DNA from: Minisyncoccota bacterium
GTDB lineage: Bacteria; Patescibacteriota; Microgenomatia; UBA1400; PJMF01
Direction of reading: 5' to 3'
DNA length: 35,381 nucleotides
NCBI GenBank assembly: GCA_003173865.1
Contig: PJMF01000014.1
Span: 1 to 35,381, forward strand
The translations under genes and the position numbers were made by a program. Within the stretch, counting starts at the first letter, position 1. Each line of letters opens with the position of its first letter. This document shows positions 1-18,282 of this stretch, one piece after another. The notes beneath the pieces are model-generated. The model was not told the origin of the DNA and searched no databases. It saw only the letters and a list, made by a program, of their open reading frames with translations.

Positions 1-74
1 TGTCAAGGGGGAGACTCGAACTCCCAACCTCCACGTTATGAGTGTGGCGCTCTAACCGGTTGAGCTACCCTGAC
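1..74 (-). tRNA. tRNA-Met(CAT), elongator type (or tRNA-Ile2)
   Basis: Read on the minus strand, positions 74 to 1 fold as a complete cloverleaf. The acceptor GTCAGGG pairs with CCTTGAC (one G-U), the D stem is GCTC/GAGC, the anticodon loop is CTCATAA (anticodon CAT), and the T arm is GGGAG-TTCGAGT-CTCCC. The discriminator base is A and CCA is not seen because the window ends there. The G1-C72 pair excludes an initiator. Base pair 31-39 is an A-C mismatch. Elongator Met and lysidine-modified Ile2 tRNAs share the CAT anticodon and cannot be separated by eye. Confidence 0.9.
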
Positions 75-17212: not shown

Positions 17213-17241
17213 TTGCGTAAGACAAGTTTTTTTGTTATACT
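17213..17241 (+). promoter_or_regulatory. promoter of the T-box leader
   Basis: TTGCGT (17213-17218), a 17-bp spacer and TATACT (17236-17241). The predicted start is near 17248. Confidence 0.6.
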
Positions 17242-17247
17242 ACGCTT

Positions 17248-17580
17248 AGTTTAAAACTAAAGGCTGCGTACATTTCGGATGGGACTTGTACATTCTCTCA
17301 AGAGAAAGCCGATGGGGCAAAGTGTATTGAAGGTCACTTCGATAGTCGTCGTCTCATACGCAGGTCAAGCGTTATCACATGACAACAGTATGTCGGAGCA
17401 ATCTGGAGTACTGAAATAACAAGGATGTTTATCCTTTTTGTTACTTTCAGTTCCCGCCGCAGCGGGAATTTTTGTAACCAAAGCTAAGCATCAAAGCAAG
17501 GTGGCACCGCCCTTTTGATAAGAGCCCTTGTAGACGTTTCACTTTTTTTAAAGAAGTGGAATTTCTGCAAGGGTTTTTTT
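17248..17580 (+). promoter_or_regulatory. T-box riboswitch leader (transcription attenuation)
   Basis: This untranslated leader senses uncharged tRNA. The T-box core AAGG-TGGCACC-GC is at 17498-17510. CAAGG (17497-17501) can pair with CCTTG inside 17525-17530, leaving the 7-nt bulge TGGCACC and a CTTTT/AAGAG helix: the antiterminator. The same CCCTTG (17525-17530) alternatively pairs with CAAGGG (17568-17573) before seven T: the terminator. Upstream are a long stem closed by CTGCGTA/TACGCAG (17264-17270/17357-17363), a CTGAAA/TTTCAG hairpin (17411-17450) and TTCCCGC/GCGGGAA (17451-17468). The variable base C in TGGC predicts a tRNA with discriminator G, as in the tRNA-Trp downstream. I could not fix the specifier codon; TGG at 17404-17406 followed by A is one candidate. 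Confidence 0.8.
17525..17580 (+). terminator. intrinsic terminator of the T-box leader
   Basis: CCCTTG...CAAGGG with a long stem between and TTTTTTT at 17574-17580. The CCCTTG arm is shared with the antiterminator. Confidence 0.85.
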
Positions 17581-17698
17581 ATTACCCTTGTGGGGGCAAT
17601 TAAAAGATCAAGAGAGAGCGTGTGAAAAAAAGCTTTTTACGACGCGATTTTGAGATCAAAGAAGCTAGCACTTTAAAAATTATAGAGGAGGATGCGAT

Positions 17699-17747
17699 TG
17701 CCCTCGCTGATTAGTAACGAAAGTTCTGGTGGCTAATCAGGGGGGGC
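17699..17747 (+). other. large hairpin and possible mini-ORF after the T-box
   Basis: GCCCTC and CTGATTAG (to 17714) pair with CTAATCAG and GGGGGC (17733-17747), 14 pairs around one G-G mismatch. Just upstream GAGGAGG (17685-17691) precedes a tiny frame: ATG at 17692 or TTG at 17698, ending TAA at 17734-17736, 12-14 residues. The frame crosses the 5' arm, so its translation would disrupt the hairpin. Function unknown. Confidence 0.45.
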
Positions 17748-17778
17748 AAACGATTCTGAATGAATAATGGAGATCACA

Positions 17779-18096
17779 ATGAAGGTAATGAAATCGATTC
17801 ATCAGTTCCTGGGGAGTTTTTTCACGATTATGCCAACAGAAGCAGATCTGAGAAAAAATTTTCCGCACAAAAAGCACTGCAGTGCGAACCGCTTTTTTGA
17901 TATGAAGCAATTGATCTCTGTCGGCTGGGGATCCATTTACGATGATGATGCTCATGAATACAGCAATCTCATCGAAGAGACAGAGGCTCATATGACTAGT
18001 AGTAGTACATGGCCCTTGTCGTGGTTCTTCAAATCTCACTTCTTGCGTTGTAGGGAGTGTGATGCCAGAGCGCAATATCGAGAGAATAAAAGCTAA
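17779..18096 (+). CDS. hypothetical protein downstream of the T-box
   Basis: A 105-residue frame that I do not recognise. It starts MKVMKSIHQFLGSFF, contains three Trp, an acidic middle (YDDDAHEYSNLIEETE) and ends with a basic segment holding a Cys pair (FLRCRECDARAQYR). The ATG at 17779 has GGAG 8 nt upstream; ATG at 17767 is the alternative. It sits between the T-box terminator and tRNA-Trp, so it would be T-box controlled. Codon choice looks less typical than in neighbouring genes, and an equally long frame exists on the opposite strand, so it may not be real. Confidence 0.4.
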   Translation: MKVMKSIHQFLGSFFTIMPTEADLRKNFPHKKHCSANRFFDMKQLISVGWGSIYDDDAHEYSNLIEETEAHMTSSSTWPLSWFFKSHFLRCRECDARAQYRENKS

Positions 18097-18132
18097 GTAA
18101 CTCGTAAAGTAACAAATCGTTTGTCTACCCCC

Positions 18133-18165
18133 ACGGAGAAGAGAAAGCATCCTCCTCTCCGTTTT
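18133..18165 (+). terminator. hairpin with short T-run directly before tRNA-Trp
   Basis: ACGGAG (18133-18138) pairs with CTCCGT (18157-18162), extended inward by AGAG/CTCCT-like pairs, followed by four T. The tRNA starts at the next base. It may be a weak terminator or a processing hairpin for tRNA 5' maturation. Confidence 0.4.
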
Positions 18166-18237
18166 GAGTTCATGATGCAACTGGCAGCATAAGAGTCTCC
18201 AAAACTCTCAATCTAGGTTCGAATCCTGGTGAACTCG
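18166..18237 (+). tRNA. tRNA-Trp(CCA)
   Basis: The acceptor GAGTTCA pairs with TGAACTC, the D arm is ATGC-AACTGGCA-GCAT, the anticodon arm AGAGT-CTCCAAA-ACTCT (anticodon CCA) and the T arm CTAGG-TTCGAAT-CCTGG. The discriminator is G73, as usual for bacterial Trp tRNAs, and CCA is not encoded. It lies 45 bp before trpS and downstream of a T-box whose variable base matches G73. Confidence 0.95.
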
Positions 18238-18282
18238 CATGGGAAATAAAAAAAAACACTATAGAATAGATGAAAGGAAACT

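Follow-up and report, generated by a model that had tools for sequence, protein, structure and literature searches.

The leader at positions 17213–17580 of the window, the whole 35,381-nucleotide stretch of DNA analysed here, is confirmed as a T-box, with an antiterminator far above chance. It is probably a transcription-attenuating tryptophan T-box with an ultrashort Stem I, gating an open reading frame (ORF), trpS and, between them, a second tRNA-Trp gene. This explanation is built on sequence elements, covariation, gene order, recurrence and the second tRNA copy. T-boxes control synthetase, biosynthesis and transport genes, and trpS under T-box control is well known, for example from the transcriptional T-box 5′ of trpS in Bacillus. 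Contig C32, which makes up the window, comes from a 1.2-Mb genome that is 95% complete and in which all 50 tRNA matches were located and read. Its trpS shares 75–78% identity with genes of Candidatus Pacebacteria and Woesebacteria, placing the genome on the Microgenomates side of the Patescibacteria. The genome contains four T-boxes (Trp, His, Tyr and Gly), and the comparison set consists of 93 T-boxes from this genome and 54 relatives. The leader is composed of the following elements:

17213–17241 (+): promoter-like TTGCGT-17-TATACT at the leader start, the top-scoring + strand pair in the region, under the threshold of a stricter scan
17262–17310 (+): ultrashort Stem I with base GGCU/AGCC, containing the specifier hairpin and a second hairpin (fold −14.9 kcal/mol)
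17280–17282 (+): putative specifier codon UGG (Trp) in the hairpin loop GGAUGG, with homologous loops in Trp leaders of relatives
17386–17413 (+): Stem IIA, CAGTA (17386–17390) UGUC ... GGAG UACUG (17409–17413), with 5/5 pairs in the window
17451–17473 (+): Stem III hairpin with U-run, terminator-like, 5′ of the antiterminator (−13.2 kcal/mol)
17494–17532 (+): antiterminator with T-box bulge UGGCACC at 17502–17508 (43.4 bits, E 4.4e-11 with the relatives-only model R2)
17525–17580 (+): intrinsic terminator (17525–17573) and T7 (17574–17580), competing with the antiterminator (fold of 17520–17581, −32.6 kcal/mol)

In the antiterminator helix, CAAGG (17497–17501) pairs with CCTTG (17526–17530), flanking TGGCACC (17502–17508). 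The bulge fits UGGNACC, with helices A1 and A2 on its two sides. The terminator is mutually exclusive with it, as 17526–17530 belongs to both competing helices. The predicted stability is −32.6 kcal/mol for the terminator versus −8.1 for the antiterminator, and the whole leader folds with z = −6.8. Antiterminator, bulge and competing terminator with T7 had already been described in a sequence-only reading and are all found in place; its list of elements lacked the second terminator-like hairpin, at 17451–17473 within Stem III. A similar hairpin and T-run, at most 120 nt upstream of the bulge, is seen in 24 of the 93 T-boxes, usually at a distance of 23–34 nt, and might represent tandem terminators. 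The 49-nt Stem I of the window consists of two small hairpins, a layout that recurs in the Trp leader L153, and is without the distal AG bulge and the apical double T-loop motif through which the long Stem I subclass binds the tRNA elbow.

In this clade, Stem I of a leader is often very short and displays the codon in its hairpin loop: CAC for His (L002), CGC for Arg (L131 and L136) and UAC for Tyr (L041). The loop reads GGAUGGAA or GGUUGGAA in the Trp leaders L009, L153 and L241. In the window, the loop GGAUGG, closed by a C-G pair, is matched by the Trp-leader loops GGAUGGAA, GGUUGGAA and GGUUGGGA of relatives, and homologous loops are present in L009, L153, L156, L179 and L241. By this comparison, without binding data, the specifier is assigned as UGG at 17280–17282, the tryptophan codon that had been expected and no other amino acid’s. 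The variable base of the UGGC bulge, proposed earlier to fit G73 of the downstream tRNA-Trp, is indeed a C, complementary to G73 of both tRNA-Trp genes in the genome. Across the four T-boxes of the genome, this base is C (Trp), G (His), U (Tyr) and A (Gly), in agreement with G73 of the linked tRNA-Trp, C73 of the linked tRNA-His and U73 of tRNA-Gly from the same genome. The U of the Tyr T-box is set against A73, a base read from T-box-linked tRNA-Tyr genes of relatives.

Downstream of the terminator, three genes follow on the same strand in the order ORF, tRNA-Trp, trpS:

17767–18096 (+): 109-aa ORF, HxxxC...CxxC-like, family unknown
18133–18162 (+): hairpin and T4 directly 5′ of the tRNA, a weak terminator or processing signal (−14.2 kcal/mol), not called by the terminator scan
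18166–18238 (+): tRNA-Trp (CCA), with G1-C72 and G73, CCA end not encoded (58 bits)
18263–18268 (+): −10-like TAGAAT, 15 nt 5′ of the trpS ATG, a possible own promoter; TACAAT/TATAAT similarly placed in L045–L048
18283–19287 (+): trpS, tryptophanyl-tRNA synthetase (TIGR00233, 323.8 bits versus a cut-off of 176.75)

The sequence-only reading had tRNA-Trp and trpS following the leader in the same orientation, which holds, except that the 109-aa ORF intervenes and the gap from terminator to tRNA measures 585 nt. The ORF has no Pfam or NCBIfam match; its homologs are located in the interval between leader and trpS in L008/L047 (G028) and close to the T-box in L009. Upstream of the ORF, a very stable hairpin (17697–17749, −30.4 kcal/mol) without a U-run is also observed. 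No tryptophanyl-tRNA synthetase gene other than the window trpS was found in the genome.

Given a 585-nt gap that contains the ORF and a terminal hairpin, the T-box might govern nothing beyond ORF 17767 and possibly a share of trpS expression, with tRNA-Trp and trpS transcribed mostly from their own promoters of non-sigma-70 consensus. For trpS itself the idea has some substance, since TACAAT, TAGAAT or TATAAT is kept 9–15 nt before the gene in L044–L048; the TAGAAT of the window, together with the TACAAT/TATAAT of four close relatives, makes a basal trpS promoter possible. For the tRNA, however, TATAAT is the clade rule, a −10 with 5 or 6 of 6 positions lying within 42 nt of 13 of 18 tRNA-Trp genes of relatives, and no −10-like hexamer was found within 42 nt of the window tRNA-Trp (best 3/6). 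The gap between terminator and tRNA likewise has no + strand promoter pair comparable to that at 17213, the best in 17560–18166 having AAAAAT as its −10. Moreover, in L009, L241 and L250 the Trp T-box is immediately followed by tRNA-Trp. Control of the ORF alone is judged unlikely on this balance. A separate promoter alone serving both tRNA-Trp and trpS, which would have refuted the arrangement as first proposed, is not supported either, no promoter-like −10 preceding the tRNA.

The passage from a T-box to its cognate tRNA is a recurrent design and not a one-off. With the window not counted, 8 of the 93 T-boxes are followed by a same-strand tRNA within 39–63 nt (Tyr: L016, L030, L032, L033, L041; His: L002; Arg: L131, L136), versus a chance expectation of about 0.14 by our own arithmetic, assuming 50 tRNAs per 1.2 Mb. 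In all eight linked loci, specifier, anticodon and discriminator base agree in marking the tRNA as cognate, and the His T-box of the source genome also leads into tRNA-His. The terminator U-run ends 0–25 nt 5′ of the tRNA in the linked loci, versus 585 nt in the window, and therefore leaves little or no promoter room between. A pattern search for T-box plus tRNA yielded matches in 6 of 374 genomes of the class and 7 of 380 of the phylum, at 11 distinct places, versus one match for the reversed control pattern. A clear tRNA is present at nine of the 11 places: tRNA-Tyr occurs at L240, L242, L244 and L245 (the last being the L033 locus), tRNA-Trp at L241 and L250, with L250 preceding a TrpRS-like ORF, and three tRNA-Arg at each of L246, L247 and L248, which are weaker cases because TATAAT lies between terminator and tRNA. 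The match at L249 was rejected as chance. At L243 and L244, a Tyr T-box is directly followed by a tRNA-like sequence whose anticodon loop is unclear; at L243 this sequence was not called by ARAGORN. Viral contigs were rejected as carriers: among 80 pattern matches examined, four had a tRNA and none a terminator.

The window tRNA-Trp is a second copy, the other being located on contig C26 with TATAAT 21 nt upstream. The source genome carries two tRNA-Trp and two tRNA-His genes, each pair comprising one T-box-linked gene and one elsewhere; a T-box-linked and a separate tRNA-Tyr are found in G046, G027 and G053, and two tRNA-Trp genes, one directly 5′ of trpS, in G046 and G065. An aberrant or degenerate window tRNA-Trp was rejected, the type being ordinary in the clade, as was a phage origin, phage tRNAs matching only partially. 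A second tRNA-Trp could also have entered the operon by chance, leaving its T-box control without function. This ordinary type, and the presence of two distinct tRNA-Trp genes in relatives that do not have this arrangement, such as G007 and G024, would be compatible with a mere passenger, but the order from T-box to cognate tRNA is repeated across families, for Trp as for Tyr, His and Arg. A chance tRNA would not be cognate each time, which weakens this explanation and leaves it with a low probability.

Several further features accompany these loci. L178, L179, L180 and L208 (G057, G046, G065) place a specifier hairpin or Stem IIA and a terminator before tRNA-Trp or tRNA-Tyr, abutting tRNA-Trp; they lack a UGGN bulge, UGG is found in the terminator loop or arm of the three Trp cases, and the mechanism is unknown. 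An archaeal-type tRNA-Tyr (C1-G72, short variable arm) is located behind the Tyr T-box in L030 and L032 (G027, G033), in an operon that includes an archaeal-looking TyrRS. In L001 (609–1439, − strand), L016, L033 and L041, the gene after the Tyr T-box encodes a 270–300-aa protein that has no Pfam family and looks like a reduced version of the TyrRS/TrpRS core; it precedes tyrS in the last three. At L002:2410–2515 (−) lies a Ser-like tRNA, matched by Rfam and not called by ARAGORN, whose variable arm is unusually long. Contigs C1, C2, C5, C6, C7, C9, C11, C13, C15, C16, C20, C23, C29 and C32 of G000 end at a tRNA gene or a few bases from one (for example, window 1–74), probably through an assembly effect or at integration sites.

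At its gathering threshold, the Rfam model RF00230 calls no T-box in the window. In a search by E-value, the same model matches 17257–17532 end to end with 18.8 bits versus a cut-off of 93 (E 0.029 genome-wide), and the Tyr, His and Gly T-boxes of the genome score higher than the window leader. The cut-off is a detection threshold and not a defining trait of T-boxes; of the 54 relatives in which the model matches a T-box, just 10 pass it, and it thus misses most T-boxes in these Patescibacteria genomes. The low score of the window leader is plausibly due to its ultrashort Stem I. The covariance search proposed with the sequence-only reading came out in its favour with model R2, which covers the antiterminator domain and was constructed from 56 T-boxes of relatives, the source genome excluded: 17494–17532 is the genome’s best match, with 43.4 bits, corresponding to E 4.4e-11 for the window alone and 1.5e-9 genome-wide. 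Pairing of the antiterminator in the relatives amounts to 95.4% of cells, versus 76% when shuffled and 29–59% when slid. For Stem IIA, in a 33-row alignment including the window, the values are 89.1% versus 53% and 23–48%; the arm sequence of the window is absent from the other rows, yet 5/5 pairs are kept. A 5′-domain model from relatives, R1, did not find the window, a failure that does not count against the T-box because R1 is too poorly structured, being poorly aligned with nine pairs only and a misaligned Stem I. A decaying T-box, a relic with recognisable parts whose Stem I no longer binds tRNA, could draw on the low Rfam score, the miss by R1 and a Stem II differing from the CGGAGGCGAAACCG of other Trp leaders, but is very improbable with an antiterminator domain that is the genome’s top score, a Stem IIA fully paired with its own arm sequence, and specifier, bulge and terminator all intact.

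The window leader shares with the transcriptional T-box of RF00230, the Bacillus trpS type, the UGGN bulge, specifier, Stem II, Stem III, antiterminator/terminator and downstream trpS. It differs in its ultrashort Stem I, which lacks the distal double T-loop motif, its terminator-like Stem III hairpin, its occurrence in Patescibacteria and the ligand tRNA gene inside the controlled operon. Transcriptional T-boxes generally require a long Stem I (PMC7583486), while those with an ultrashort Stem I are mostly translational according to Sherwood et al. 2015, as far as that work is represented in PMC7583486. The window has in common with the latter a specifier near the end of a short Stem I lacking an elbow-binding motif, but its output is an intrinsic terminator. 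Tryptophan-responsive termination 5′ of trpS is also the idea of the leader-peptide attenuator of the RF00513 type, which senses the translation of Trp codons. Close relatives with the same trpS type have such Trp-Trp leader peptides (MTRTTARSSWWASLK, MDMTNTYQQIKFSWWRHSK, MTRHTTQSSWWTSLS) and no tRNA, whereas the window has a T-box and no Trp-Trp peptide with a start codon, TGGTGG near 17730 being without an in-frame start. In the Pacebacteria-like L005, L006 and L008 (also L045–L047), leader peptides and terminators 5′ of trpS are consistent with ribosome-mediated attenuation; a short ORF with tandem Trp codons before the terminator is present in L045–L047 and was not found in L044. A homolog of the 109-aa ORF is similarly placed in one relative with a leader-peptide attenuator. 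In the window lineage, T-box and tRNA thus look like replacements or additions.

In the proposed mechanism, the promoter at 17213–17241 would produce the leader RNA, which may offer UGG to the anticodon CCA of tRNA-Trp. The 3′ GCCA of uncharged tRNA-Trp is inferred to pair with the bulge UGGC, stabilizing the antiterminator and preventing the terminator at 17525–17580. Read-through, likewise inferred, would transcribe ORF 17767, the second tRNA-Trp copy and trpS. RNase P, 3′ processing and CCA addition would presumably free the tRNA, and TrpRS would restore charging, closing the switch. The C26 tRNA-Trp, from its own promoter, could provide the signal while the operon is off. With this second, apparently constitutive copy, the feedback loop need not start itself, and the T-box would thus gate an inducible reserve of tRNA and synthetase. 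More TrpRS would mean less signal, and more tRNA more signal while tryptophan is short; cis action on the same transcript is unlikely because the tRNA is no ligand before its 3′ end is made. The likely use, a physiological inference, would be to keep tRNA and enzyme in reserve for starvation or a shortage of TrpRS. The operon reading has to contend with the 585 nt, ORF and T4 hairpin separating terminator and tRNA, the Rfam score below cut-off, the miss by R1, a possible own promoter of trpS, the absence of expression or binding data, and the closest relatives, whose same trpS has Trp-Trp leader peptides and no tRNA. The unusual loop first suggested, a T-box over both a synthetase and its own effector tRNA, is accordingly supported and found to recur, with the qualifications that a second, apparently constitutive tRNA-Trp exists, that co-transcription across 585 nt is inferred and that trpS may have its own promoter.

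The open-access literature searched yielded no paper on T-box control of tRNA genes or on candidate-phylum T-boxes, which does not prove the absence of precedent. As the design recurs for Tyr, His and Arg, the signal molecule of the switch appears to be one of its own products. The leaders appear, by inference, to work as transcriptional T-boxes with an ultrashort Stem I, a feature that the literature ties to translational ones. As a tentative generalization, judged slightly less likely than not, Patescibacteria may have a standing regulatory design: the T-box would control, along with synthetase or biosynthetic genes, a divergent second gene for its ligand tRNA that is dedicated to this role and inducible according to charging, and a constitutive copy would serve as sentinel. 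Positive feedback (more ligand) and negative feedback (more charging) would then be combined, and some lineages would have lost the bulge and kept the specifier hairpin, the terminator and the adjacent tRNA. In conclusion, the T-box apparently gates transcription of the very tRNA that it senses, which would place a tRNA gene under the control of its own charging state and provide a natural feedback circuit for modelling and testing.
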